This document shows, piece by piece, positions 1-25,690 of a DNA stretch of 31,910 nucleotides. The position numbers and the translations under genes were made by a program. How positions within the stretch are numbered: the stretch's first letter is position 1; each line of letters opens with the position of its first letter. The notes under the pieces are model-generated. The model was given only the letters and a program-made list of their open reading frames with translations, had not been told where the DNA came from and searched no databases. Origin of the DNA: a virus; IMG/VR virus record IMGVR_UViG_3300049855_000134, positions 1-31,910 of that record. The stretch is one strand, 5' to 3'.

Positions 1-92
1 CCTGGCAGGTCCGGCAGTGTCTCTACAATCCGGCGCGAAGATCCGGCCAATGGTTCGCCGCAATAGGCGCATCGTGGTAGTTTCGTGGTCAT
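1..92 (-). CDS. Hypothetical protein, N-terminal part (cut by window edge)
   Basis: The frame opens with ATG at 92 and runs off the left edge; the visible 30 residues begin MTTKLPRCAYCGEPLAG. The CAYC pair suggests a zinc-binding knuckle, but the second pair, if any, is outside the window. The start overlaps the stop of the upstream gene as ATGA, the arrangement used through most of this minus-strand operon, and this is the main reason to accept it. Function unknown. Confidence 0.55.
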   Translation of the reverse strand, partial: MTTKLPRCAYCGEPLAGSSRRIVETLPDLP

Positions 93-313
93 TTCTTGCC
101 CTTTGTTTTTCCGGTTCCGCAGTCATGGCATATCGGCAGACCATCATTGAACGCGACGAAACACGGAAGGCCGCATTCTCCGCATTCGATTAGGTCAATA
201 TCTCCGCTACGCATTAACGCTTGTTTCATCTGATGTTGACAGGTTTTATATCCGGCTTCCCATAGACGTTTATTCTCGTTATATAACTTAGCGTGGCTGG
301 TTGTGTTAATCAT
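89..313 (-). CDS. Small zinc-ribbon protein
   Basis: A 74-residue protein with two cysteine pairs, C44-G-E-C47 and C62-H-D-C65, spaced as in a zinc ribbon, and a basic tail (GKTKGKK). I start it at the ATG at 313 rather than the in-frame TTG at 328, because the TTG lies inside the attC-like element and the bases TTAGGTG just after that element can serve as the ribosome-binding site. It is therefore the first gene after attC-like site 1 in the direction of transcription. It ends with an ATGA overlap into the next gene. Small zinc-ribbon proteins are common in phage early regions; no specific function can be assigned. Confidence 0.7.
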   Translation of the reverse strand: MINTTSHAKLYNENKRLWEAGYKTCQHQMKQALMRSGDIDLIECGECGLPCFVAFNDGLPICHDCGTGKTKGKK

Positions 314-319
314 AAATGC

Positions 320-373
320 ACCTAACAAGACGATGCACCGGAGCCTTCGGCCCGGTGATCGGTGGCGTTGGGC
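320..373. other. attC-like recombination site 1 (complete)
   Basis: On the plus strand this reads ACCTAAC (fits RYYYAAC), a 5-base spacer, GATGCACCGG, a short loop, CCGGTGATC, a 6-base spacer, and GTTGGGC (fits GTTRRRY). The arms pair except for one extra G in the left arm, six pairs from the loop end, like the extrahelical base of integron attC sites. Size (54 bp), end boxes, spacers and bulge all fit a short attC. The minus-strand gene 322-702 reads through it and stops within its terminal box. No integrase is seen, so activity is inference; a plain intergenic hairpin is the alternative. Confidence 0.6.
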
Positions 374-702
374 GCCAGCGACAGCAACACATCACGAAAC
401 GCGGGCGGTGTTGCATTCCTGATCCGCGTCTTGTCCTTCCCGCCGATCATGGCCATCATGCCAATGCGACGCGCCTTCTCGTATCCATATCGCTCAAGCG
501 CCACTGGATGGATCTTTTGCTCTGACGGCCCCCATATCAATTCCGGCTGTCCACAATACCGTCCCCACCGCTGACATGGCGGATGGGCTACAACAGGATG
601 CGGCCCGGCGTATTTCCTGGCATCCCGATTGATGTCCCAGGGATCGACGCCGGGCAGGTTGAAATAACACCCGTTGGTTTCTACGAATAACGCGGCAATC
701 AT
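322..702 (-). CDS. Phage protein, probably internally deleted
   Basis: A 126-residue protein starting MIAALFVETNGCYFNLPGVD and containing VVAHPPCQRWGRYC, ELIWGPSEQ and IRNATPPAFRDVLLSLA. From memory, these blocks belong to a widespread phage protein of unknown function that is usually about 200-250 residues; the segment normally between CQRWG and the ELIWGPSEQ block seems to be missing in frame here. The last 18 residues (from PNATDHRAEG) are encoded by attC-like site 1, so they are not part of the ancestral protein. The start ATG at 702 lies just after attC-like site 2 with only a weak ribosome-binding site (GGTGGCGA). It may be a non-functional remnant. Confidence 0.7.
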   Translation of the reverse strand: MIAALFVETNGCYFNLPGVDPWDINRDARKYAGPHPVVAHPPCQRWGRYCGQPELIWGPSEQKIHPVALERYGYEKARRIGMMAMIGGKDKTRIRNATPPAFRDVLLSLAPNATDHRAEGSGASSC

Positions 703-719
703 TCGCCACCATCCGCAGC

Positions 720-777
720 ATCCAACAAGTCGCTAGACCGGAGCGGCTTCGCCGCCCGGTCAGCTTGGACGTTAGAT
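720..777. other. attC-like recombination site 2 (complete)
   Basis: The plus strand reads ATCCAAC, then AAGTCGCTAGACCGG, a GC-rich loop hairpin (GCGGCTTCGCCGC), CCGGTCAGC, a 6-base spacer TTGGAC, and GTTAGAT. Both end boxes fit the integron consensus exactly. The arms are complementary (GACCGG/CCGGTC, GCT/AGC) with one extra A in the left arm at the same place as the extra G of site 1. The arm sequence differs from the other sites, so the similarity is in structure and end boxes rather than simple copying. The 51-residue gene to its right on the minus strand stops in the ATCTAAC box. Confidence 0.6.
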
Positions 778-927
778 TTTCTTCGCATAAATAACCTTAG
801 CTTCTTGTTGTGTAATGTCTCCAACTTCAATGGCGCACCGAAGGCATAAAATCAATACATCCTTCCATGTATTATATTCAATCATTGGCTTAATGGTCGG
901 GGTGTGATTAAAGTATAATGACTTCAT
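772..927 (-). CDS. Hypothetical 51-residue cassette protein
   Basis: ATG at 927 is preceded by AAGGA seven bases upstream, a good ribosome-binding site. The 51-residue product starts MKSLYFNHTPTIKPMIEYNT and ends AKVIYAKKI; the centre (WKDVLILCLRCAIEVGDIT) is a likely amphipathic helix followed by a charged C-terminus. Its TAA stop is formed by the ATCTAAC box of attC-like site 2, the usual layout for an integron cassette gene. AT content is higher than in the flanking genes, which suggests a separate origin. No family recognised. Confidence 0.65.
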   Translation of the reverse strand: MKSLYFNHTPTIKPMIEYNTWKDVLILCLRCAIEVGDITQQEAKVIYAKKI

Positions 928-961
928 ATTTAATTCCTTGGTATGTGTTGTTTATGAAAAA

Positions 962-1036
962 ATCTAACAAGGTGATGCACCGGAGCCGGACGGCCCCTAG
1001 TGCGGTGGTTGTGGCTCACCGCCGGCCCGGTGATCG
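962..1036. other. attC-like site 3 (one end degenerate)
   Basis: ATCTAAC at 962-968 fits the box consensus, followed by AAGGT, GATGCACCGG, a longer GC-rich loop and CCGGTGATC at 1027-1035. Arms are identical to sites 1 and 4. The expected GTTRRRY box six bases after the right arm is not recognisable (the region reads GATAAAAATGG), so this site has lost or never had one end. The minus-strand ORF 1016-1240 enters it and stops in the loop. Confidence 0.5.
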
Positions 1037-1240
1037 ATAAAAATGGTCATGGCCTTGGCCTTTCATAAACTTCACCCGACGCGGCTTCTTTGGAATAACT
1101 TGTGGGAAATCAAGGCTATAGGTTACCAATGGTTGCGATAGCTTTGTTCCAGTAGAGGTATTCGATAGTTGTATTTCATCAAATCCAACAAGTAGATGCA
1201 CCGGAGCCGGGCCGTCCTGGTTTTGCTTGGCGTCACTCAT
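1016..1240 (-). CDS. Hypothetical protein bounded by attC-like sequence at both ends
   Basis: A 74-residue frame starting MSDAKQNQDGPAPVHLLVGF. Its ATG lies in the loop of attC-like site 4 and overlaps the TGA of the preceding gene (ATGA). Residues about 8-20 are encoded by the right half of site 4, and the C-terminus (FYRSPGRR) by site 3; only the core (DEIQLSNTSTG to MKGQGHDH) comes from the DNA between them. A start upstream of 1240 would have to run antisense through the neighbouring gene and is unlikely. This may be a real cassette protein whose ends were created by recombination, or a fortuitous open frame. No family recognised. Confidence 0.5.
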   Translation of the reverse strand: MSDAKQNQDGPAPVHLLVGFDEIQLSNTSTGTKLSQPLVTYSLDFPQVIPKKPRRVKFMKGQGHDHFYRSPGRR

Positions 1241-1266
1241 TTGCCGGCCTCGGTGATCTGATGGGT
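1183..1266. other. attC-like site 4 (one end degenerate, long loop)
   Basis: ATCCAAC at 1183-1189, AAGTA, GATGCACCGG at 1195-1204, then a loop of about 44 bases, CTCGGTGATC ending at 1258, and GATGGGT, which is one base off the GTTRRRY consensus and badly spaced. The loop contains the stop of the Acb2/Tad1-like gene and the start of the next gene. GCCGGGCC and GGCCGGC extend the stem. The arms match sites 1 and 3. Confidence 0.5.
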
Positions 1267-1572
1267 GCCTTCCACCTTGGCGACTTCGCGGCGATTGGTC
1301 CGCGCATTCAGCCAATGCAACGCCTCCTCCAGCTTGGTCACGGCCAATGCATTTTCACGGCACCTAAATTGTCCGGCCTGATAGTGTTCAATGCGCTGCA
1401 AGGCGGCATAAATGACCGTCTCGACAAATGCGCCATTGGGCGGGGTGCGTTCGCCGTCGCGGCCTAAAGGGCCATTCTGCCAGTCAATTGAAAGCCCGAC
1501 GCCGCGAACGGTTCCTCCAGCAGGCCTACCATTGGCGTCAAGATTGTTGATGGATTCAGGAATGCTCAGCAT
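1237..1572 (-). CDS. Acb2/Tad1-like anti-defence protein (cyclic-nucleotide sponge family)
   Basis: A 111-residue protein. The pattern GRPAGGTVRGVGLSIDWQNG, PNGAFVETVI, FRCRENALAVTKLEEALHWL and RTNRREVAKVEGTH matches, as I recall it, the Acb2/Tad1 family: an N-terminal beta part followed by a two-helix hairpin ending in R-T-x-x-R and G-T-H. Known members bind signalling nucleotides (gcADPR of Thoeris, cyclic di- or trinucleotides of CBASS) and so block these defences; whether this one binds one or both cannot be told here. The ATG at 1572 has AAAGGAAACACC upstream, a form of the local conserved ribosome-binding site. No stop separates it from an upstream frame starting at 1791. The last residues (QITEAGK) are encoded by attC-like site 4. 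Confidence 0.65.
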   Translation of the reverse strand: MLSIPESINNLDANGRPAGGTVRGVGLSIDWQNGPLGRDGERTPPNGAFVETVIYAALQRIEHYQAGQFRCRENALAVTKLEEALHWLNARTNRREVAKVEGTHQITEAGK

Positions 1573-1791
1573 GGTGTTTCCTTTCGAGAAACGTGGCGGC
1601 CCGGTGATCTGGGCGTTGGGCAGACTGTACTTGGCCTGTATGTCAGTAAGTATTTTTCTTTGATTTTTTATTAACTTCTGCATACGGTCAATATGAAAAA
1701 TCAAAGATCTAACGATATGTAATTGTTCATTGCTTCTTAATTTCATTTTTCCGGCATAGGTAATAGATTGTTCGACGGATAGGGCTTCCAT
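1237..1791 (-). CDS. In-frame fusion: small unknown protein joined to the Acb2/Tad1-like gene
   Basis: Without a stop at the junction, translation from the ATG at 1791 (which overlaps the preceding TGA as TGATG) would give a 184-residue fusion. The first 73 residues (MEALSVEQSITYAGKMKLRS and on) are an unrelated, Lys/Arg- and Ile-rich helical protein. Residues PNAQITGPP at its end are encoded by half an attC-like site (1601-1621), as gene 322-702 ends in PNATDH at the equivalent place. I infer that the upstream gene once ended at a full attC-like site, whose other half was lost when the Acb2/Tad1-like gene with its own ribosome-binding site was joined. Both a fusion and a separate internal start are possible. 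Confidence 0.5.
   Translation of the reverse strand: MEALSVEQSITYAGKMKLRSNEQLHIVRSLIFHIDRMQKLIKNQRKILTDIQAKYSLPNAQITGPPRFSKGNTMLSIPESINNLDANGRPAGGTVRGVGLSIDWQNGPLGRDGERTPPNGAFVETVIYAALQRIEHYQAGQFRCRENALAVTKLEEALHWLNARTNRREVAKVEGTHQITEAGK
1601..1621. other. attC-like half site 5
   Basis: CCGGTGATC, TGGGC and GTTGGGC are the right arm, spacer and GTTRRRY box of the attC-like element, nearly the same as 352-373. The matching left half is absent; in its place are the ribosome-binding site and ATG of the Acb2/Tad1-like gene. It reads like a scar of an imprecise exchange. Confidence 0.5.
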
Positions 1792-2051
1792 CACGACCAC
1801 GCCCCTAAGCGCCGCAGTCTGCCCACCGTCTGCTTAACAGCGGCGGCCACCTTCGCCTGCGAGACTCCCTCAGCATACATGCGCCGTGCCTGTGCCAGGT
1901 CGGCCTCTGGCACCGTGCCCCACCTCGCCGCCATCCCGAGCTTGCCGCGCCGCGCAAGCTCACCGGGCCGCGCATTGTCTGCGGCCTCGGTAGCGATCTT
2001 GCGCATGTGCGCGCGGTATTCCTTAGAAGCGAAAATGTTTTCGATGCTCAT
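1791..2051 (-). CDS. Small HTH-like protein
   Basis: An 86-residue protein starting MSIENIFASKEYRAHMRKI. The middle (ARRGKLGMAARWG) is basic, and residues about 60-84 (EGVSQAKVAAAVKQTVGRLR) look like a helix-turn-helix, so DNA binding is possible. The start overlaps the stop of the upstream gene (ATGA) and the end overlaps the next start (TGATG), placing it in one translationally coupled chain. The leader is A-rich (AAAGAAAAAAAC) with only a weak ribosome-binding site. Family not recognised. Confidence 0.7.
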   Translation of the reverse strand: MSIENIFASKEYRAHMRKIATEAADNARPGELARRGKLGMAARWGTVPEADLAQARRMYAEGVSQAKVAAAVKQTVGRLRRLGAWS

Positions 2052-2284
2052 GTTTTTTTCTTTGTTGATGGCGCTATATAGCGCCAGATCTTTGATCTTA
2101 CCAGAGATTCACAGTCTTTGCGAGTAAGGTTTTTGCTTTTTTTGTACCCGGTGCCTTTGATGCACAGGAATACTGTTTCGCCGTCGCCATACGCCAGGTG
2201 ATCGGTTTCGTCAAGAAATCCGTTGATATTACGAACGTATTTTATGGTTCCGTGCAGGTGTTTTTTTAACTCAGACCGTTTCAT
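2048..2284 (-). CDS. Hypothetical basic protein
   Basis: A 78-residue protein starting MKRSELKKHLHGTIKYVRNI and ending in a lysine run (TKKKT). I choose the ATG at 2284 because it is preceded by AAAGAACCCC, a variant of the leader found before several genes here. An in-frame ATG at 2428 would add 48 residues of low-complexity character and competes with another frame, so it is less likely. Basic, mixed alpha/beta, no recognised motif. The stop overlaps the next start (ATGA). Confidence 0.6.
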   Translation of the reverse strand: MKRSELKKHLHGTIKYVRNINGFLDETDHLAYGDGETVFLCIKGTGYKKSKNLTRKDCESLVRSKIWRYIAPSTKKKT

Positions 2285-2339
2285 GGGGTTCTTTACCTGC
2301 CAGCGATGGTGTTCCCTTGTAGCGGCATGTTGGCATAGG

Positions 2340-2483
2340 TCAATAGTCTTTGTCTGGGGTTTCCTTGGCTTCTTTGGATTGCCTGCAATACTCAATACTG
2401 GCAAACCACACTGCTCGGTATGCATCATCGGCCTTTATTTTTGCGGACTGTAGTTCATTCCCATATCTTGGAGTAGATTCCAA
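2340..2483 (-). CDS. Possible small protein with TTG start, or gene remnant
   Basis: This 47-residue frame (LESTPRYGNELQSAK, then ADDAYRAVWFASIEYC) ends TAT TGA at 2340. Composition and helix-like periodicity look more protein-like than the overlapping frame from 2428. It has no ATG and no clear ribosome-binding site before the TTG, and it contains AAGGAAACCCCA, the conserved leader of neighbouring genes but without a following start codon. It may be a decayed gene. Confidence 0.3.
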   Translation of the reverse strand: MESTPRYGNELQSAKIKADDAYRAVWFASIEYCRQSKEAKETPDKDY

Positions 2484-2492
2484 TATACGGGA

Positions 2493-2498
2493 ATTATA
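2493..2498 (-). promoter_or_regulatory. Candidate -10 box for the left part of the minus operon
   Basis: On the minus strand a perfect TATAAT occurs in an AT-rich stretch, after the structured element at 2619-2698 and before the chain of genes from 2483 to 1. The hexamer 17 bases upstream (CAAGAT) is a poor -35, so this is only a candidate. Confidence 0.25.
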
Positions 2499-2618
2499 CG
2501 GCTATCTTGGATGGTATCTTGGAATAATTTGAAAGAGCGTTTCCCACCAGGTAAGCCCAGCGCAGCATTGGCGCTTGGGAGCCCGTTGCGGATTTACCTT
2601 GTCTATATCCGCACACTG

Positions 2619-2698
2619 ACCGCGCTAGGGTTCCCCGCTAGGCTTCCCGGCATTAAGCCGGGAATGCCGACGCAAGGGGAATCCCGACGCAAGCGGGT
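2619..2698. repeat. Structured element, copy A (nested hairpins)
   Basis: Nested complementary segments: ACCgCGCT (2619-2626) with AGCGGGT (2692-2698); GGTTCCCC (2629-2636) with GGGGAATCC (2676-2684); GGCTTCCCGGC (2641-2651) with GCCGGGAATGCC (2657-2668) around the loop ATTAA. The joining segments GCTAGGCTT and AATGCCGACGCAA recur exactly in a second copy at 7402-7488, while the stems differ in sequence but still pair. It lies just downstream of the minus-strand gene 2701-2892, in a gap otherwise empty from about 2500 to 2700. It could be a structured RNA, a terminator or processing element, a palindromic repeat of REP type, or a DNA recognition site. Confidence 0.6.
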
Positions 2699-2700
2699 GA

Positions 2701-2892
2701 CTACTGGAAAGACATAGAATCCTGGTGATTCCAGTGTTCATCAGCTTCGTCCCTGAATCCACGCATCCATGCCTGAACAAGGATCGATGGCTTTATGAAA
2801 TCATCCTCCGATGGCCAGGACGATTCAAAATTGTATTTGTAGGCACTTCGTCCTTCGCGGTACGCCTCACTATATGTTGCTGGTTTTTTCAT
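2701..2892 (-). CDS. Small protein with weak RMF/CrpP-like pattern
   Basis: A 63-residue protein starting MKKPATYSEAYREGRSAYKY. I start at 2892 because AAGGAAACCCG precedes it, the leader used at several genes here; the in-frame ATG at 2922 has no such site and lies in a hairpin. The pattern A-Y-x-E-G-R near the N-terminus and WMRGFRDEADEH near the C-terminus resembles ribosome modulation factor and phage CrpP-like small proteins (tandem short motifs with G and W), but the match is only suggestive. It is followed by structured element A. Confidence 0.6.
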   Translation of the reverse strand: MKKPATYSEAYREGRSAYKYNFESSWPSEDDFIKPSILVQAWMRGFRDEADEHWNHQDSMSFQ

Positions 2893-2923
2893 CGGGTTTC
2901 CTTGGTTGAGTGTGGCATTCATG

Positions 2924-2948
2924 CTTCCCCAGGGTTCACCTGGGGAAG
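2924..2948. terminator. Perfect hairpin between RadC-like gene and next gene
   Basis: CTTCCCCAGG and CCTGGGGAAG form a perfect 10-bp stem around the 5-base loop GTTCA. It sits in the 76-base gap between 2969 and 2892 on the minus strand. There is no U-run after it, so it is more likely an attenuating or mRNA-processing hairpin than a full terminator. Confidence 0.45.
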
Positions 2949-2968
2949 GTGAGGGTCAGACGGATGGG

Positions 2969-3487
2969 TTAACTGAATGCCTGCGGCTCATTGCGTCTGA
3001 TGGACGTAAAATTGCCAGCCGATCCAATCACAATATGATCGTTTAATCTCATATCTACCATGGCGCACGCTTGTGACACTCGCCGAGTCACGGCGATATC
3101 TGCCGCAGACGGCGATGGGTCGCCAGTCGGATGATTGTGTGTGAGCACTATTGACGCAGCGCCTGCCGTAAGTCCCAAGCGCAGTATTTTACGCAATGGA
3201 GCATCGCATCCGCAATCATCGCCTTCACTCACGGTTATGGGGTCGCCAATTAACCGACAGCGAACATCCAGTGGCAATAGTACCATGCGCTCAAATATCA
3301 ATGGCGAGAGAAGTGGAGCGAGAAGGCTGGCGATTGCTTCCGGCCCATTGAGTCCACTACGGGGAGCTCGTGAATGCATCGCGTGCCTATACGCGATGCG
3401 CAATTGTTCCACGTGCATACGGGCCGACTTACCCATGCTTGCCGGCAGCGCAAGCGTGTGATCAACAATAAATGGAGATAGGTCCAT
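2969..3487 (-). CDS. RadC-like JAB-domain protein
   Basis: A 172-residue protein with the RadC/JAB metal-binding signature HNHPTGDPSPSAAD (H117, H119, D130), preceded by the conserved core strand of the fold (ERMVLLPLDVRCRLI, residues 66-80) and followed by LNDHIVIG. The JAB fold usually binds zinc; RadC's true role is unsettled despite its name, and the family is frequent on phages, plasmids and islands. The N-terminal helix-hairpin-helix of longer chromosomal RadC proteins (about 220 residues) appears absent or reduced. The start at 3487 is fixed by AAGGAAACCCC. It lies in the minus-strand accessory operon. Confidence 0.85.
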   Translation of the reverse strand: MDLSPFIVDHTLALPASMGKSARMHVEQLRIAYRHAMHSRAPRSGLNGPEAIASLLAPLLSPLIFERMVLLPLDVRCRLIGDPITVSEGDDCGCDAPLRKILRLGLTAGAASIVLTHNHPTGDPSPSAADIAVTRRVSQACAMVDMRLNDHIVIGSAGNFTSIRRNEPQAFS

Positions 3488-3503
3488 GGGGTTTCCTTAG
3501 GGT

Positions 3504-3563
3504 TCACTTGCGCCATGTTATTCTGGCGACGGTTTCTAGGGTATCAGCAGCGGCTGTACGCTT
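3504..3563 (-). pseudogene. C-terminal remnant duplicated from a neighbouring gene
   Basis: In the frame beginning right after TGA TAA, this encodes K-RTAAADTLETVARITWR-K and a stop. It repeats, with only third-position changes, the C-terminal part of the gene 3748-3984. There is no start codon and the rest of the gene is missing, so it is a gene tail left between the stop of 3567-3773 and the leader of the RadC-like gene. Confidence 0.6.
3510..3560. repeat. 51-bp direct repeat, copy 1
   Basis: It matches 3799-3849 with 46 of 51 bases, including a 33-base identical run at the left end. All five differences fall at third codon positions of the minus-strand frame encoding RTAAADTLETVARITWR. 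Confidence 0.85.
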
Positions 3564-3566
3564 TTA

Positions 3567-3773
3567 TCACTGGTCTATCTCCCATTGCTCGCGGGGAGCC
3601 ATTTCCGCACCACCGCTCAGGTATTCCTTGCCGCAGCGGTTACACTGAAAGTCCGAAAAGCCGTTTCCTTCCACCTTGCACCCGCAGGTACATTCGTAGA
3701 GGGCTTCGACTTGGTGGAAGCCACGGGGTGAGTTGTCCTCGACCATTTCATACTGGCGGATGCACTTGAGCAT
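3567..3773 (-). CDS. Small zinc-ribbon protein
   Basis: A 68-residue protein starting MLKCIRQYEMVEDNSPRGFH. C-T-C-G-C near residue 30 and C-N-R-C-G-K near residue 45 form two cysteine clusters typical of a zinc ribbon. The start at 3773 has GGAG six bases upstream and overlaps the end of the preceding gene by 26 bases. It sits between the two copies of the 51-bp coding repeat, so it may have been brought in by recombination at that repeat. Function unknown. Confidence 0.65.
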   Translation of the reverse strand: MLKCIRQYEMVEDNSPRGFHQVEALYECTCGCKVEGNGFSDFQCNRCGKEYLSGGAEMAPREQWEIDQ

Positions 3774-3984
3774 GGGAGTCTCCGGGGTTGGTTGGTGTGC
3801 GCCATGTTATTCTGGCGACGGTTTCTAGGGTGTCGGCTGCGGCCGTGCGTCGAATAAAGGCCGCTAGGGCCTCGCTTTCCTCCCGGTCGGCACGGTCGCG
3901 ACACTCGCGCAATTCGTGGCCGTTGACCAGCATAGGAGCCTCGATCAACTGGCATGTGCGTAGATGGATGGGGAGGGGGCTCAT
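3748..3984 (-). CDS. Hypothetical helical protein carrying the repeat-encoded tail
   Basis: A 78-residue protein starting MSPLPIHLRTCQLIEAPMLV. The centre (RDRADREESEALAAFI) is highly charged and helical, followed by RTAAADTLETVARITWR, the segment duplicated at 3504-3563. The ATG at 3984 overlaps the TGA of the upstream gene (TGATG); a GTG one codon earlier is less likely. The synonymous pattern of the duplicate suggests that the tail is, or was, under selection as protein. Family not recognised. Confidence 0.65.
   Translation of the reverse strand: MSPLPIHLRTCQLIEAPMLVNGHELRECRDRADREESEALAAFIRRTAAADTLETVARITWRTPTNPGDSHAQVHPPV
3799..3849. repeat. 51-bp direct repeat, copy 2
   Basis: This is the partner of 3510-3560, here within the intact gene 3748-3984. 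The distance between copies is 289 bases, and the unit between them contains the whole gene 3567-3773. Confidence 0.85.
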
Positions 3985-4178
3985 CACTGTGCCGCACGAT
4001 CTAAAAGATGATCAACATACGATTCCGCCTCCGCTTTTTTTGCACCAGCGTCCATCCAGCCGGCTGTAGCGTGCCACGCGGCCCAGCGGTAGCCGGAGTG
4101 TCGTCCAAGGGTCACCCCTCTGTATGAGTACCTAAATAGCTGGAGATTTCGATCTGACTGGCGCGGCATACACTTCAT
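3984..4178 (-). CDS. Hypothetical small protein
   Basis: A 64-residue protein starting MKCMPRQSDRNLQLFRYSYR, with RHSGYRWAAWHATAGWMDAG in the middle and a helical end (AEAESYVDHLLDRAAQ). It is rich in aromatic residues. The start at 4178 is supported by AAGGAACCCC immediately upstream. It overlaps the next gene by TGATG. Family not recognised. Confidence 0.65.
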   Translation of the reverse strand: MKCMPRQSDRNLQLFRYSYRGVTLGRHSGYRWAAWHATAGWMDAGAKKAEAESYVDHLLDRAAQ

Positions 4179-4219
4179 GGGGTTCCTTCGTTATGCCTAT
4201 TGCTAGGCGGTTAATGGTG

Positions 4220-4245
4220 CAGGGTGGACGCGTGAGCGCACCCTG
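4220..4245. terminator. Hairpin in the gap between first and second genes of the minus operon
   Basis: CAGGGTG and CACCCTG form a 7-bp stem with a 12-base loop, between the stop at 4254 and the start at 4178. A smaller hairpin, GCCTA/TAGGC, lies just beyond. There is no U-run, so this is probably not a strong terminator. Confidence 0.3.
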
Positions 4246-4253
4246 ACTGACGA

Positions 4254-4538
4254 CTATTCCGCTACTGGTTCGTGGCCCTCGGATTCCCATGCGGCGATGG
4301 CGTCTCGGGCCTCCTCCTCCTCTGCCTCGACTGCCAGTCTGGCGGCGTCTAGGATATCCTCGAAACTAGTGCCTTCCGGGGTGTTGAAGTATTCATGCGA
4401 GAATGACCCGCTATTGTCGTAGAAGCTACGCCGTTCGGCGCGCTCCTCGTAGCGTCCGCATAAGCGGGTCAGCGATCCGCTGCGCGGCCCTCTGATGCTG
4501 GTCAGGATATCTAGCAGTCTCTCGGCGTGATCGCTCAT
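4254..4538 (-). CDS. Hypothetical acidic protein, first gene of the minus operon
   Basis: A 94-residue protein starting MSDHAERLLDILTSIRGPRS, with a very acidic C-terminus (EAEEEEARDAI to the end). The ATG at 4538 is preceded by AAGGAACCAACC, the local leader; an in-frame ATG at 4592 lacks one. Being promoter-proximal, acidic and small, it fits the general look of early phage modulators, but this is only an impression. Its start faces the divergent plus-strand genes across 4539-4693. Confidence 0.65.
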   Translation of the reverse strand: MSDHAERLLDILTSIRGPRSGSLTRLCGRYEERAERRSFYDNSGSFSHEYFNTPEGTSFEDILDAARLAVEAEEEEARDAIAAWESEGHEPVAE

Positions 4539-4693
4539 GGTTGGTTCCTTGCTGGGTATGCTCGTATCATGCCAGCGCCCTGCAATAATCAATATATATT
4601 TATCCCCAGTGTTTTCCGCGCGTTTCGTATCAACCTGGCTAATGATAATGCACTATCGATAGGGAGGATGCGCGGTAGCGTCATGGAAAACAA
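4539..4693. promoter_or_regulatory. Divergent control region
   Basis: This gap separates the minus-strand accessory operon from the plus-strand late genes. It holds a perfect 10-bp palindrome CTATCGATAG (4653-4662), a TGATAAT sequence (-10-like GATAAT at 4644-4649, reading rightward, without a good -35), an AT-rich block around 4591-4602, and GGGAGG at 4662-4667. Promoters in both directions are expected here, and the palindrome is a candidate operator. No exact start site can be given. Confidence 0.4.
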
Positions 4694-5125
4694 ATGCAAG
4701 AAGAAACTATTGTCTGGCAAACGTATGTTGCTTTGTTATTAATCTCATGCATGCAACGAATACGACTCAAAGTCGGAGCGGCTCTGGCCGGGGTGACTCC
4801 GGAGCAACTAGTTAAGTGGGAGCGAAGGCACGGATGGCCGGAGTTGGGGCGTGATTCGCAGGGCGATAGGTACCTAGAGCCGCACCAAGTGCGCGAGGTC
4901 GGGGAGGTAGCGCGGAGGTGCGCTGCGGGCGCGCGGATTTCGGCGGTGATCGCGGACCTACGAGCGGAGTCGCAGGCGGTGGCTGATCTGCGGGGCCTAG
5001 TCGCTCGGCTAGAGCGATCGCTGGCGGAGTGCGTCGGCGCGAGTGAGCGGATAGCGGAGGAGCGCGCGGCGGCGCTGAGAGCGGTATCGTCCTGGAGATA
5101 CTCATACGCTGCGAGGACGATATGA
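4694..5125 (+). CDS. MerR-like HTH protein with coiled-coil tail
   Basis: The frame is 143 residues from 4694, or 124 from the ATG at 4751 (MQRIRLKVGAALAGVTPEQL), which I think more natural although neither has a clear ribosome-binding site. The segment VGAALAGVTPEQLVKWERRHG resembles the winged HTH of MerR-type regulators, followed by RYLEPHQVREVGEVARRC. The second half (from about residue 85) is a Leu/Ala/Arg/Glu-rich coiled coil. It overlaps the terminase small subunit start (ATGA), so it may be a regulator or an additional DNA-binding partner of packaging. Confidence 0.65.
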   Translation: MQEETIVWQTYVALLLISCMQRIRLKVGAALAGVTPEQLVKWERRHGWPELGRDSQGDRYLEPHQVREVGEVARRCAAGARISAVIADLRAESQAVADLRGLVARLERSLAECVGASERIAEERAAALRAVSSWRYSYAARTI

Positions 5126-19159: not shown

Positions 19160-22100
19160 ATGCCTACCGTTCCTGGTGAAATAAAGCCAATAGATCCACC
19201 AGCGCCTTCACTTGCAGCAGAGGCGGCGATGGAGGTTATCTCCAGCAATGAAAGACGGTCCGCGCCAACATCGCCAAACAGAGGCAATGATGCAACGTGG
19301 GTAGCTGCGGAGGTTCTTGCTGAATCAATAGACAACCCTGTTCACCAAAGCCTCTACGCCGCCAGCAAGCTTGACCCCAAGCGCACTGGCCGAGTGACGG
19401 CGCTGGCCGACAAACTACAATTGCCAACTGAGCTTGTAGACCGTCAGCTTGAATATCTGGAAGGCGTGGAGGAATACGATACCAACCGGCAGGGGGCCGA
19501 CGTTGGCAATCTGCTTGCCACCCATCCAACGTTATACCATTGGCTGCGTGACCGTGATAATGCGGCGCTTGCGTCAGGGGAAATCCCGGTTTTGCGGCGC
19601 ATCCATCAGTTCATGGAGATGAACTACCCACAGCCAGCGCCGCTATCGCCATTGGCTGAGAAGTCTGGCTTTTGGCGTGATGTGACGGTTGCCGGGGCGC
19701 GAACACTGGGCGCGTTTTATTTGATCGACGAGGAATCCAGGCAGGCCGCAGATGACATGGGGCAGGCATCGGCCGAGGCGTCCCCTGGATTCGGCGGCGA
19801 CATTCGCCGTGGCGCTGCTGGCGTAACCGCCGACCTTCCGTTACTGCTACTCGGCGCCGGTGTCGCTGGCGGCGCTGCCAAGACGTGGACGGCGCTGCGG
19901 GTCAGCCGCGCCCTGTTGCCGGTGCTTGGTCGAGTTGGCACACGGGCGGTGCAATCCTTTGCCGTAGCCAGTGCCGCCAATCTGCCCATCGGTATTCGTG
20001 AGACGGCTGCCGTTGGCCAGGAACATGGGCTGGTTTCCGGCTTGGTCCAGGGTGCCATCAATACCCTGATCCCAGGTCTGTTTGGACGATCTGGTCTAGA
20101 GCGTGGGCTTTTACCCAAGACTGTGGCACAAGCTGGCCGGCAGGCATCCTTGAATCTGTTTCGTGAAACGGCCATGGAAGGCGCCGAGGAAATCACCACG
20201 GAGCTTTCCAGCGCCATCTATGAGGCGATGAGCGGGGATGATCCGACCGCGTTGCAGGGCGACAAGTTGTTCCGTCGCCTTTCTGTTGCGGGTACCCTGG
20301 GCGCTCTGATGGGCGGCGTCTTCAATCTTCCTGAGGCGTTACAGCACCGGGCGACGGCGGTAGGCCAGAACATTACCCTGAGCGCACAGGAGGCCGAAGC
20401 ACGCAAAGTTTTGATCGAGACGGCCATGGCTAGCAAGACCAGGGAAAACGGCCCTGGTCGGTTCCAGGCGATGGTGGAGGCGGCCACCAAGGGTAACGCC
20501 ATGATCTACCACCAGGCGGCAGATTGGGAGGCGTACTGGACCGGGCGCAAAATGGACCCTATGGCCCAGGCGGTGGCGTTTGGGGTGGATGCCAATGTGT
20601 ACGCCACGGCCAAGGCAACGGGCGGCTTAGTGCCGGTGCCGCTTGGGCCAGCCTTGTCCAAGATGGATCCGGCTGACCAAGTGTTTTTCCAGGGCGGGAC
20701 TTCCCGCCCAGACGCCATCCCAAGCAAGGATCTTCAGGGCGCGACTGACCGTCTGCGCAAGGAACTTACCGAGCAGGTGGCCGAGCAGGCACGCGCCGCT
20801 GACCCAGAGAGCATCAACCGGGTCGAGCAGATCATTGCCACTCAGTTGACAGCAGCAGGCACCGAATCAGGTACCGCCACCACGCAAGCCAAGGTAGCGG
20901 CGCGGATGTTCCACCGGATTGCCGATCGACTGGTGCCGGCTGATGCCCCCGATGCGCCGGCAGTAGTTGCCGAGGAATCCACGGCTACTGTGCCTGTTGG
21001 GGCAACTAACGAGGAATCCTCACCAGTTCAACCGACCGCCCCCGCTCCCGCACTTTCCGGGCAACCTGGGGTTGTGTCGATTCGCGCTGAACGTGTCGAA
21101 TCACTGGCCATGGAACTGTTCGCCAAGCATTGGGCCGGCGTAACGTCTGGTGATGCACCGGGTGCATGGTCTGCGGCGCAGCAGATCGACGCCACCGATG
21201 CGCTGATTGCCCGAGTGAAAAAGGGCGAGCGCCCAACTGATCGTGATATTTACGGCCCGAGTCTATTGGAATACCTTCAGGTGAAGGGCATTGTCGATCA
21301 CGGCGGCGAACTGGCCTATCTGGATCTCAATAAGAAGATGGGCAAAGGCGGTCGCTTGGTTCGTAAGAACGGTCAAACGCTGGACGTTGCGCGCGAGGCC
21401 GTTTTAGAGGAAGGGTACGAATTGAGCGAGGATTCGATCAATGGATTGCTTCGCGCCATTAGCGACGAGATTTCCGGAGAGAAATTATATAATCCAGCGA
21501 ACTTCCGCGAGGAACAACTCGCCACTCGTAACGCGATGGATGCAATAGAGCAATATGCCAAGGACGCCGGCATTGATGATGTATCAACGGCAAGCGCGGA
21601 AGACATCCGCGCAGCCGTAGAGCTTGGCAGTCGGCAGTCGATGGAGCAGACCAAAGACACCCCGCGCGGCGCACTAGCCATCGGCCCTGGTCGGCGCATG
21701 TCCATCAAGCTGCTAGAGGGCGCGGATCTTTCCACGTTCCTGCACGAGATGGGGCATATGTATCTGGAATTGCTGTCAGAGTACGCGCCGAAATCCACCA
21801 AGATGGCAGAGGATTTAACGACGTTGCGCACCTGGATGTCCGAGATGGATGTCAATGAGATTAAGCAAGAGGCGGTGGCGCTGGCGAAGACGGACGCGGA
21901 GAAGTTGGCGCTTGGGACGTTGACCAAGGATGAAATCGTTGCATCGGCGAAGTCGTTCACCGGCAACGCCTTGATTCTGCGCGCGTTCCATGAGCGTTTG
22001 GCGCGCGGCTTTGAGGCGTACCTGTTGGAAGGCAAGGCCCCGAGCCGTTCCTTGCGCAATGTGTTTGCTGCTATGAAGGGTTGGATGCTGGCGATTTATT

Positions 22101-25100
22101 CCAGTATCCGCAACCTGAATGTGAAGTTGACCCCGAGTGTGCGCGCGGTGTTTGACCGGGCGCTAGCGACTGATGCCGAGATTTCGGAAGCGGTTGATGA
22201 GATGCAGGTCAGAACCTATCTGACTAGAGAGCAGGCGCTGAAAGAAGGTTGGAAGGAAAGCCAGTGGGATTCGTATGTACAATCAGTGGCTCTAGCGCAG
22301 GAAGAAGCCGAGTCTCGCTTGCGAGCCATGGTGATGAAGGGGCACATGCAGGCGTCTAAGGACTTGCAGCGCCTAGAGGAACAGGAAGTCCGCGCCGCTG
22401 TTGGCATCGCGGTCAATCGCCGGCAGGATTTCGTGGCTATTCGCGCGCTGCAAATTGGGCAGTTGCCGGAAGGCATGACGAAGCCTGATGGCGTGAAGCT
22501 GAAACTTGACCGTGATTCTTTAATCGCGGAGTTCGGTGCATCCAGCTTGGATATGCTGCCAGGTCCGAACAAGAAAGACGCGACTGAGCCGAAGCGCAAC
22601 GCCGGTCCGATTATCTACGCCAAGTCTGGCGGGCTTAATCTCACCGAGGCGGCTGCGATGTTTGGCTATCCGTCTCCGCAGAAATTGTGGGAGGCCTTAG
22701 TAAACGCGCCGGATCGCATGACGCTGATCGACACCGAGACTCGGGAAGAAATACGCCGACGTCACCCAGATCCAGCGTTGAATGGCGAAGCGTCTGCTGA
22801 GGCGGCGTTTATCGTTGCCGATGAGATGGCTGGCGAAGTCTTGGCGCAAGAGATTGAGCACTTGAGCCGGCGACTTGGCAGCGAGGCCGCACCCCGTGAG
22901 GTGATGCGCAAGGCGGCTGGTGAAATCATTTCCGAGATGAAGGCGATGGATATTCGCCCGGACTCATATAAGTCCACGGCGGAAAAAGCTGGTCGCGAGA
23001 AGTTTCGCAAGGTCGCTGAGATGCTGGACGCTAACCCAGAGGCACGCGCTGCCCTGGAGCGCGAAGTGTACACGGCTGCCCAGCGGCAGTTGATGAATCT
23101 GGAGCTTTACCGTGCGGCAAAGATTGCGGTCGATGAAGCGCAGTCTGGCCGCGTGTACCTAGATGCTTTTAATAGCCTAGAGAAACGTGCGAAGATCGGC
23201 AAATCTGGCGGGCTTGAGTACGTAGTGAGAATGCGATCCAATGGGGATCTCGCGCAGGACGAGAATGGAGAGGATCTGATCTTTGACAGCGAGCGCGAAG
23301 CCCGCGCCGCCGCCGATGCGGTGGGTGGCGTGATTGATCGGGTCAGTGGATATCTAGAACAAATGGATCAGGTGCTTGATAGCGTCGATCTACGCCGCGC
23401 CAGCGTTAAGGATCTGCGGCGGCGAGAGAGTTTGATCAAGTGGATTCGCCGGCAGACGGATCGCGGTGAGATGGTAGATATACCGGCCCTTGCGGAAACC
23501 TTGGGCAATACCCCGTGGATGTCGCTGACGATTAACCAGCAACGCGCCGTTACCGATGCGATGAAGAACATTGAGCATCTGGCCAACACGCGGTCCAAGA
23601 TGATGGACGCACAAGATGCCCGTCAATTTGGCGCGGTGGTCGATACGCTGTCATCGAGCCTAGAGGAAAACGCGCGCCGGGTTGTCGTGCCGAAATCCAC
23701 CGGCAAAAGCGCGTGGGACCGTACGGCGCATCTTGGCATGACCTTCTGGAATGCACAGGTAAAAGATGCGTTTTTAGTCCGTGAGATGGACGGCGATAAG
23801 GATGGCGGCGAGGCGTTTAAGAACATCACCGACAAGCGCAGTCGCGCCGCGTCCCATGAGTCTATCCTGTTCCATGATTTTGCGAAGGTGTTCGATAAAG
23901 CCAACAAAACATGGGGCAAGAAACTCGGTATGTTTGCCAGTGCCGTGCCAGGCACAAACATGCGGATCACCAACGAGAACCGCATTATGTATGCGTGTTA
24001 TTGGGGGAATGCCGATGGTCGTCAGCGGGTGTTGCAGTCTATCGCTATGGCAGGGTACGGCGAATCGGATGTGCAGGCGGTGCTGAATTCGCTGGACGAA
24101 GCTGATATTAAGCTGGTCCATGAAATATGGGCATTGGCGAACAAGCACTGGTACGACCTGAAGGCCGTCGATCAGCGCACCACTGGCCTTGCGCCGACCA
24201 AGGTAGAGGCCACGCCGTACAAGACCAAGGCCGGGACGTTATCTGGCGGATACATGCCGATCATGTATGACGCCAGCGAAAGCCTCAACACGGCGAACAT
24301 GGAAGCGCAAGAGGAAGCGGTCAATTCGCTGAAGGCGGCCAACCGTGTTGCCGGTACGCGCCGCCGTGCAAGCAAGCAGCGCGCAAAGAGCGTTAGCAAT
24401 AGGGCGCTTCGATTCGACCTGACAGCGTTTGCGTCAGCGATGTCCGAGACGATCCACGATATTACTCATCGTGAAATGCTGATAGACCAGAACCGATTAC
24501 TGCGGGATCCTGACGTTTCCGAAGCGATTATGAAGTATCACGGGCGAGCGGCGCTTGATCAGTTGTATAATGCAACCGCCGCTGTTGCGGCTGGTGAAAC
24601 TGGGCCGAAGAACGCATTCGATTCTGTCGCATCAAAGATGCGGCGCGGAATCGCTGCGGCTGTTTTCACCTTTAACGCCACGTCGGCGCTGATGCAAATC
24701 ACCGGCATCACGCAATCCATGGTCCGCGTTGGCCCGAAGCATATGCTGAGTGCCGTCGGCCGCATCTTTAGCACTGCGGCACAGATGGACTCTGCGTTTC
24801 AGGAAGCGCAGGATAAATCAGAGTTCATGCGTACGCGCATGATTACCTATCTCCGTGAGGTCAACGATGCGGTGCGCCTGGTTGGAGCCAATCGGACGCT
24901 GGAGAATATCAAGTACGTCGGCTATTGGCCGATGACGCGCATGCAGCAAATGGTTGACACGATTACATGGCACGCCGCCTATGAGAAGTCGATGGCCGAA
25001 TCCGTTGGCAAGCTCGATGTAGCTGAAGCCGAGAAGCTGGCGATAGCGGTAGCGAACCAGACGGTTGTTGACACGCAAGGAAGCGGTCGCGCAACCGATA

Positions 25101-25690
25101 TGGCGGCGGTTCAACGTGGCAGCGAATTGGCCAAGATGATGACTACGTTCTACTCGTATTTTAATGTGACGTTCAACCTGCAACGTTCGGCATGGCGCAC
25201 AGCGTATGCAAAGAGCGCCCCTGGCGCGCGGATCAGCGCATGGGTTAAGTTCACCACGGATACGATGCTGATCTGGATGTTGCCAGCGGCCATGTCTGCG
25301 ATGATTCGCGGCGCTTTAACCGGTGGCGATGACGGCGATGACGACGAGATGGACGTTAGCAAGATTTCCAAGAAGTTCATGGATAATCAGATCAGCTATG
25401 GCCTTGGCATGGTTGTTGGCGCGCGAGAACTGGCCGGCGCGTTTGGCGGTCACTACGGATACCATGGCCCGGCAGGCTTCAGAAACTTCCAGGTCTTGTC
25501 TTCGTTGCTGACGCAGATCCGCGAGGGCGAGCCCGACACCGCAGCGCTAAAGGCGGTGGTTAGCGGAGCCGGGTTGTTTGGCCTTCCGGCCGTAGCTGCC
25601 AACCGGGCGATTGATGCATTCCTTGCGGATGAGGAATCGGGAGTCAATGCACAGGCCATCCGGCACGCGCTGTTTGGCAGACCAAAGTGA
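19160..25690 (+). CDS. Giant internal virion protein with HExxH peptidase-like and LPD38-like regions
   Basis: A 2176-residue protein starting MPTVPGEIKPIDPPAPSLAA, the largest gene here. Its position and size fit the gp16-like ejection protein. FLHEMGHMYLELL with HEMGH at residues 862-866 is a zinc-peptidase signature (HExxH). The C-terminal third, from about residue 1825 (MRRGIAAAVFTFNATSALMQ) to about 2060, looks like the LPD38 domain of large polyvalent proteins, ending with a hydrophobic segment (TMLIWMLPAAMSAMI). A Gly/Ala-rich region near residues 220-245 may also be membrane-active. Lytic transglycosylase motifs typical of T7 gp16 were not seen, so it may cut peptides instead of glycans, or act after entry. 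Confidence 0.8.
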   Translation: MPTVPGEIKPIDPPAPSLAAEAAMEVISSNERRSAPTSPNRGNDATWVAAEVLAESIDNPVHQSLYAASKLDPKRTGRVTALADKLQLPTELVDRQLEYLEGVEEYDTNRQGADVGNLLATHPTLYHWLRDRDNAALASGEIPVLRRIHQFMEMNYPQPAPLSPLAEKSGFWRDVTVAGARTLGAFYLIDEESRQAADDMGQASAEASPGFGGDIRRGAAGVTADLPLLLLGAGVAGGAAKTWTALRVSRALLPVLGRVGTRAVQSFAVASAANLPIGIRETAAVGQEHGLVSGLVQGAINTLIPGLFGRSGLERGLLPKTVAQAGRQASLNLFRETAMEGAEEITTELSSAIYEAMSGDDPTALQGDKLFRRLSVAGTLGALMGGVFNLPEALQHRATAVGQNITLSAQEAEARKVLIETAMASKTRENGPGRFQAMVEAATKGNAMIYHQAADWEAYWTGRKMDPMAQAVAFGVDANVYATAKATGGLVPVPLGPALSKMDPADQVFFQGGTSRPDAIPSKDLQGATDRLRKELTEQVAEQARAADPESINRVEQIIATQLTAAGTESGTATTQAKVAARMFHRIADRLVPADAPDAPAVVAEESTATVPVGATNEESSPVQPTAPAPALSGQPGVVSIRAERVESLAMELFAKHWAGVTSGDAPGAWSAAQQIDATDALIARVKKGERPTDRDIYGPSLLEYLQVKGIVDHGGELAYLDLNKKMGKGGRLVRKNGQTLDVAREAVLEEGYELSEDSINGLLRAISDEISGEKLYNPANFREEQLATRNAMDAIEQYAKDAGIDDVSTASAEDIRAAVELGSRQSMEQTKDTPRGALAIGPGRRMSIKLLEGADLSTFLHEMGHMYLELLSEYAPKSTKMAEDLTTLRTWMSEMDVNEIKQEAVALAKTDAEKLALGTLTKDEIVASAKSFTGNALILRAFHERLARGFEAYLLEGKAPSRSLRNVFAAMKGWMLAIYSSIRNLNVKLTPSVRAVFDRALATDAEISEAVDEMQVRTYLTREQALKEGWKESQWDSYVQSVALAQEEAESRLRAMVMKGHMQASKDLQRLEEQEVRAAVGIAVNRRQDFVAIRALQIGQLPEGMTKPDGVKLKLDRDSLIAEFGASSLDMLPGPNKKDATEPKRNAGPIIYAKSGGLNLTEAAAMFGYPSPQKLWEALVNAPDRMTLIDTETREEIRRRHPDPALNGEASAEAAFIVADEMAGEVLAQEIEHLSRRLGSEAAPREVMRKAAGEIISEMKAMDIRPDSYKSTAEKAGREKFRKVAEMLDANPEARAALEREVYTAAQRQLMNLELYRAAKIAVDEAQSGRVYLDAFNSLEKRAKIGKSGGLEYVVRMRSNGDLAQDENGEDLIFDSEREARAAADAVGGVIDRVSGYLEQMDQVLDSVDLRRASVKDLRRRESLIKWIRRQTDRGEMVDIPALAETLGNTPWMSLTINQQRAVTDAMKNIEHLANTRSKMMDAQDARQFGAVVDTLSSSLEENARRVVVPKSTGKSAWDRTAHLGMTFWNAQVKDAFLVREMDGDKDGGEAFKNITDKRSRAASHESILFHDFAKVFDKANKTWGKKLGMFASAVPGTNMRITNENRIMYACYWGNADGRQRVLQSIAMAGYGESDVQAVLNSLDEADIKLVHEIWALANKHWYDLKAVDQRTTGLAPTKVEATPYKTKAGTLSGGYMPIMYDASESLNTANMEAQEEAVNSLKAANRVAGTRRRASKQRAKSVSNRALRFDLTAFASAMSETIHDITHREMLIDQNRLLRDPDVSEAIMKYHGRAALDQLYNATAAVAAGETGPKNAFDSVASKMRRGIAAAVFTFNATSALMQITGITQSMVRVGPKHMLSAVGRIFSTAAQMDSAFQEAQDKSEFMRTRMITYLREVNDAVRLVGANRTLENIKYVGYWPMTRMQQMVDTITWHAAYEKSMAESVGKLDVAEAEKLAIAVANQTVVDTQGSGRATDMAAVQRGSELAKMMTTFYSYFNVTFNLQRSAWRTAYAKSAPGARISAWVKFTTDTMLIWMLPAAMSAMIRGALTGGDDGDDDEMDVSKISKKFMDNQISYGLGMVVGARELAGAFGGHYGYHGPAGFRNFQVLSSLLTQIREGEPDTAALKAVVSGAGLFGLPAVAANRAIDAFLADEESGVNAQAIRHALFGRPK

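Follow-up and report, generated by a model that had tools for sequence, protein, structure and literature searches.

A probable Tad1-family sponge gene in an integrase-less, gene-antisense attC cluster of a phage contig, in a slot with decayed borders

Integron attC sites have been described in phage genomes, where Qi et al. reported 17 attC clusters lacking an integron integrase (CALINs), noted their methyltransferase cassettes as counter-defence, and found that IntI1 recombined five of the six phage attC sites assayed (Qi et al., 2023; PMC9892861). As far as we found, that paper mentions neither arrays antisense to their genes nor phage attC sites that contain translation signals, and our search of the open-licence literature returned no report of an antisense attC layout in phages.

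Here, we analyze a viral contig of 31,910 nucleotides (IMG/VR record IMGVR_UViG_3300049855_000134), the whole of which we call the window. At one edge of this phage contig, a leftward block of small genes contains a tad1 gene and a cluster of attC sites. We consider it quite likely that this is a Tad1-family sponge gene in a phage attC cluster that lacks an integrase and runs antisense to its genes, and that the slot it occupies has decayed borders. Tad1 is a known kind of protein; the importance of the locus lies in its setting, phage attC arrays that are antisense to their genes and have translation signals built into them.

Tad1 identity of the 1237–1572 product

An initial annotation of the window had named one small gene as a likely member of the Acb2/Tad1 anti-defence family. 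Reading the sequence located this ORF, along with every motif on which the assignment had been based:

1237 to 1572, minus strand: tad1 homologue, 111 aa plus stop; matches phrog_2428, and CmTad1/CbTad1 by sequence and fold
1573 to 1800, minus strand: small ORF upstream of tad1, same frame, no stop between

The tad1 start codon is the ATG at 1570–1572, preceded by a Shine-Dalgarno-like stretch (GGAAAC), and the stop codon lies at 1237–1239. Because there is no stop between tad1 and the upstream small ORF, the frame stays open back to 1800, for 187 aa in all.

The Acb2/Tad1 hairpin family (PF24729) matched the window protein at 26.8 bits (E 6e-6), 0.2 short of its curated cut-off of 27, and phrog_2428 matched it at 1.4e-19. 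Among solved structures, a sequence search recovered CmTad1 (8kbb, 1.8e-12) and CbTad1 (7uav, 6.5e-8), matches that a family profile search raised to 1e-24 and 3e-20, respectively. Phage features annotated as Tad1 in SPG24 and SBSphiJ7 are 46–50% identical to the window protein, and its relatives, with identities of up to 70%, occur on 72 viral contigs.

AlphaFold2, given an alignment of 37 rows, modelled the protein with a mean pLDDT of 89.9 as three N-terminal strands (residues 6–11, 17–24 and 27–31) followed by two long helices. In a Foldseek search of the PDB, all 20 matches at E ≤ 0.001 were Tad1 chains, with a TM score of 0.74 to CbTad1 bound to gcADPR; the top viral model was the Acb2/Tad1 hairpin protein of Vibrio phage VP-1 (TM 0.85). 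Acb2 belongs to the PF24729 hairpin family, which the window protein matches just below the curated cut-off. According to a review, Acb2 has a short N-terminal helix in place of the beta-sheet (PMC12043709), where three strands are predicted here, and the significant PDB matches of the predicted fold included no Acb2. We therefore rejected an Acb2 identity: a sheet plus two helices is the layout of Tad1. On the strength of the sequence matches, the relatives and the modelled fold, we regard the product of 1237–1572 as a confirmed member of the Tad1 family. The family assignment was thus borne out and narrowed to Tad1, and the structure prediction that the annotation had proposed as a check gave a fold matching solved Tad1 chains.

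The solved or verified Tad1 proteins (CmTad1, 8kbb; CbTad1, 7uav and 8smd; SBSphiJ7; SPG24) have in common with the window protein the hairpin core CRENA..TKLEEAL.W...RT..R....GT, and solved Tad1 proteins are likewise phage-encoded and built from N-terminal strands and two long helices. Compared with them, the window protein has a shorter N-terminus, extra C-terminal residues that come from an attC site, and, against the solved structures, 25–33% identity in structural alignments.

We predict from family membership that the window protein acts as a sponge. It would be made during infection and assemble with copies of itself, as in the Tad1 hexamer, then bind gcADPR (Thoeris) and cyclic di- and trinucleotides (CBASS), so that with these signals captured the host effectors would stay off; both the assembly and the nucleotide binding are predicted from solved Tad1 proteins. 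The C-terminus deserves attention in this respect. Its last residues, ITEAGK, and the stop codon are encoded by the attC site D listed below, most relatives end two or three residues past GTH, and the Tad1 pocket takes in the C-terminal tail (PMC12043709). Such a tail, or a fusion with the upstream ORF through the open frame, could leave a Tad1 fold that has no sponge action, an outcome that we judge rather unlikely: all strongly conserved family residues are retained, tad1 has a Shine-Dalgarno sequence and ATG of its own, and two other relatives (L026 and L031) also carry C-terminal extensions.

attC sites and array genes around tad1

The initial annotation had placed the gene between attC-like sequences. 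They are genuine and well beyond what chance would give: the pattern YAACAAGNNGMTNSACCGGAGC, derived from the window repeats, has four plus-strand occurrences versus none in 100 shuffles, and a covariance model built from window and related sites (sites A and B in its training set, C and D outside it) gave four matches with E from 5e-9 to 3e-14, the next best match reaching 12.9 bits. A second, broader covariance model recovered the same four sites; an Rfam scan of the window returned zero matches. The sites, with a half-site recognized beside tad1 and the neighbouring genes, are:

320 to 373, plus strand: attC A, complete; 59.3 bits, fold z −2.7
322 to 702, minus strand: array gene of the phrog_12600 family, with C-terminus and stop from attC A
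720 to 777, plus strand: attC B, complete; 60.9 bits, fold z −5.0
772 to 927, minus strand: array gene, 51 aa, with its stop codon within the attC B R box
962 to 1048, plus strand: attC C, 41.3 bits; R' box lost
1016 to 1240, minus strand: array gene, 74 aa, starting in the attC D loop (start codon 1240), leader MSDAKQNQDGPAPVHLLVG
1183 to 1266, plus strand: attC D, 43.9 bits; R' box non-canonical (GATGGGT), spacer short; shares positions with the 3' end of tad1
1598 to 1620, plus strand: half-site E, retaining only L' and R' (GGCCCGGTGATCTGGGCGTTGGGC region), just 5' of tad1; 8.8 bits as a full site

The strand on which an attC site recombines is its bottom strand, expected to form a hairpin with bulged bases. 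Folding the minus strand of A and B gave such a hairpin, in which one arm has single bulged bases. The full architecture (R'' and R' boxes, L''/L' stem, bulges and bottom-strand hairpin) is present in A and B and incomplete in C, D and E, leaving A (320–373) and B (720–777) as the only intact sites in the window. In the broader model's alignment, which takes in the window sites and others that we picked ourselves, 13 of 21 pairs are altered on both sides, versus 9.4 in shuffles; pairing in the attC alignment holds in 93% of cells, compared with 75% when shuffled and at most 42% when slid. With four attC sites and no TIGR02249 match, the window record falls within the definition of a CALIN, and may be a fragment.

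Two Planctomycetota contigs from one genome, BJHQ01000008 and BJHQ01000022, carry the same attC type in dozens of copies. The genome encodes two integron integrases that pass the cut-off; they lie on contigs numbered 8 and 22, which we take to be these two. Large cassette arrays with the window's attC type were observed at five loci on these contigs (L083, L084, L089, L092 and L095). Because sequence, structure and this Planctomycetota-type kinship agree, we read the window repeats as attC sites. They might instead be phage intergenic hairpins that resemble attC and act in termination, RNA processing or translational coupling; they do occupy gene junctions and contain stop and start codons, and the phage records lack an integrase. 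We think this improbable, given that near-identical sites stand in Planctomycetota cassette arrays adjoining true integron integrases, that the R boxes and bulged bases are conserved, that breakpoints in a related phage array fall exactly at the crossover box (see below), and that phage attC sites have previously proved functional with IntI1 (PMC9892861).

Does tad1 itself behave as a cassette? The gene has attC D on one side and half-site E on the other, two complete sites are close by, and cassettes in related phage arrays break at R boxes, all of which would suit an intact, currently mobile integron cassette. The bordering sites argue otherwise. D retains R'', L'' and L', but GATGGGT stands where GTTRRRY is expected, and the site runs into the codons for the conserved GTH residues of tad1. 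E has neither R'' nor L'', and the Shine-Dalgarno sequence and ATG of tad1 occupy the position expected for its loop. An intact recombination core is thus absent from both flanks.

Related loci point the same way. Covariance models found attC near none of 72 related tad1 loci, and a search across the whole records of 48 related tad1 genes, a set that held no positive control, also found none; a single weak match beside tad1 in one record (L045) disappeared under the second model and was discarded. We found no tad1 in other attC-bearing records or in the two Planctomycetota genomes searched. We therefore consider it unlikely that tad1 is a mobile cassette today: it sits inside an attC array, and the damage to both bordering sites leaves the idea that it moves as an intact cassette unsupported. 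The annotation's suggestion that anti-defence genes are cassette cargo holds insofar as tad1 lies among attC sites. The term is fair for the region, but with no intact flanking site and no attC at related loci such a history is not proven for tad1 itself.

The attC sites lie at the extreme end of a linear record, as they would if host integron DNA had been joined to the phage by assembly or at a prophage border. This explanation is highly improbable: genes of phage families (phrog_12600 and phrog_2428) are interspersed with the sites, and comparable arrays in three other phages (L002, L003 and L006) are internal to their records.

The window copy of phrog_12600 lacks about 100 central residues compared with its relatives and matches them in two separate halves; full-length relatives have a weak likeness to C5-cytosine methyltransferases (M.HhaI, Foldseek E 0.017). 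The other small array genes of the window gave no convincing family matches. N6/N4 DNA methyltransferase cassettes are present in the arrays of L003 and L117. The idea that attC blocks collect counter-defence genes, which the annotation had extended to neighbouring small genes, fits these observations but is not proven.

Several features lie beyond the array. Among the small minus-strand genes is a RadC-like JAB-domain gene (2969–3487; PF04002, E 1.5e-26), and a 73-aa ORF at 2701–2922 weakly resembles ribosome modulation factor (PF04957, E 6e-4, below cut-off). The segments 3509–3560 and 3798–3849 form a direct repeat of 52 nt with 90% identity; it lies near small minus-strand gene ends and suggests another duplicated segment, here without attC. 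Within the structural gene block, 19160–25690 is a single ORF of 2176 aa.

Antisense attC arrays in other phage records

A search of phage records for the attC pattern found four further arrays (L002, L003, L005 and L006), on records that also carry portal, terminase or head genes. Relatives of the phrog_12600 gene led to more: L117 (11 sites, E up to 0.1), L167 (11), L162 (six), L112 (three) and L174 (three), with single sites elsewhere. Having been found through the attC pattern or through one shared gene family, these phage arrays are a biased sample. The L003 array (727–3340) contains eight attC sites, five of them near-identical over 60 nt, with different small genes between them, and several of these genes have C-termini encoded by the attC site.

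In the window, the genes oppose their sites because the attC top strands point rightward. The window and about ten other phage records share this layout, with genes running against the attC top strand; one site, in L148, lies on the gene strand. Taking the strand of the longest ORF, 18 of 20 intervals in the window and the first four phages are antisense, versus 3 of 37 in Planctomycetota-type arrays. For GC-rich phages, longest-ORF calls gave many 'same strand' results that rested on implausible ORFs; we dropped those calls and for this reason adopted a codon score, with other phage loci as its training set. By this score, 42 of 44 phage intervals are antisense to attC, and we attribute the two exceptions to classifier error because homology puts tad1 and phrog_12600 on the minus strand. 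The classifier is weak (it scored RadC negative and called two window intervals wrongly) and ill-suited to bacterial arrays, where it gave 17 intervals on the same strand and six on the opposite one. The co-orientation of genes with attC that characterizes a canonical cassette array was not found in the phage arrays.

No phage record has an integron integrase over the cut-off, so any recombination at these sites would need an integrase supplied in trans. Searches for relatives of the window phage added no arrays: none were found by portal protein, 21 records related by terminase large subunit had no significant attC, and BLASTN of window positions 1–5000 against phage records gave no match. 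Model R2 detected no sites in TJE1, P12002L, Persinger, Jess A, MW202476 or Doze, and we consequently have no array isolate with a known host.

Junction anatomy, a possible exchange route and known integrons

Across these arrays, many upstream genes stop at a TAA within the R box (GCC TAA C), and others read on through the site (PNARDHRAPEGRSGASTC in L003). The hairpin loop of many sites contains an ATG, often with a Shine-Dalgarno sequence, and the next gene's leader then comes from L''/R''; at the remaining sites, the next start lies just beyond attC. In L117, two adjacent genes begin with an identical leader (MTDTEKDEALSGVAIDPMV) and diverge after it. The region 1100–5600 of L117 also contains two duplicated genes followed by unrelated attC sites; the identity breaks off directly past YAACG, and one duplicate has a 5' end that starts at the same box, giving three junctions in all. 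As read from the sequence, these breakpoints are the signature expected of crossover at RYYYAA|C.

These junctions suggest how exchange might proceed. The cassette unit would be an attC site followed by a gene, with the R box providing the upstream gene's stop and the hairpin loop the Shine-Dalgarno sequence and start of the next. Crossover at RYYYAA|C, presumably catalysed in trans by a host integron integrase, would swap gene bodies. The tad1 gene is now probably fixed in its array slot, given the decay of its bordering sites. A more general proposal, which we offer tentatively and would not yet count on, is that a class of tailed phages builds its accessory blocks from reversed integron cassettes, in which attC hairpins hold stop, ribosome-binding site and start, captured bodies are joined in frame to a leader or tail that attC encodes, and host integrases shuffle genes such as tad1 and DNA methyltransferases. 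If true, phages would have a distinct route to gain and swap small accessory genes through host integron machinery, and integrons would be tied to the arms race over phage defence.

The attC type suggests contact with integrons of the Planctomycetota type. The window terminase most resembles the terminases of Pseudomonas phages UFJF_PfDIW6 and AF (49–51% identity), and we did not adopt a Planctomycetota host, which the attC type alone would fit.

The window phage shares with the Planctomycetota chromosomal integron an attC type of the form AACAAGNNGATGCACCGGAGC...GCCCGGTGATC...GTTGGGC. Unlike the phage arrays, that integron has its own IntI and genes co-oriented with attC (34 of 37). The CALINs of Qi et al., with typical arrays described in TJE1 and PH101 (PMC9892861), resemble the window in having attC sites in phage genomes without IntI; our covariance model evidently misses some attC types, as it detected no site in TJE1 or P12002L. 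Window-type arrays differ from those CALINs in that their genes are antisense to attC, start and stop codons lie within the sites, and an array can hold up to 11 sites. The window array is thus a variant of the phage CALINs, with a Tad1 member inside it.
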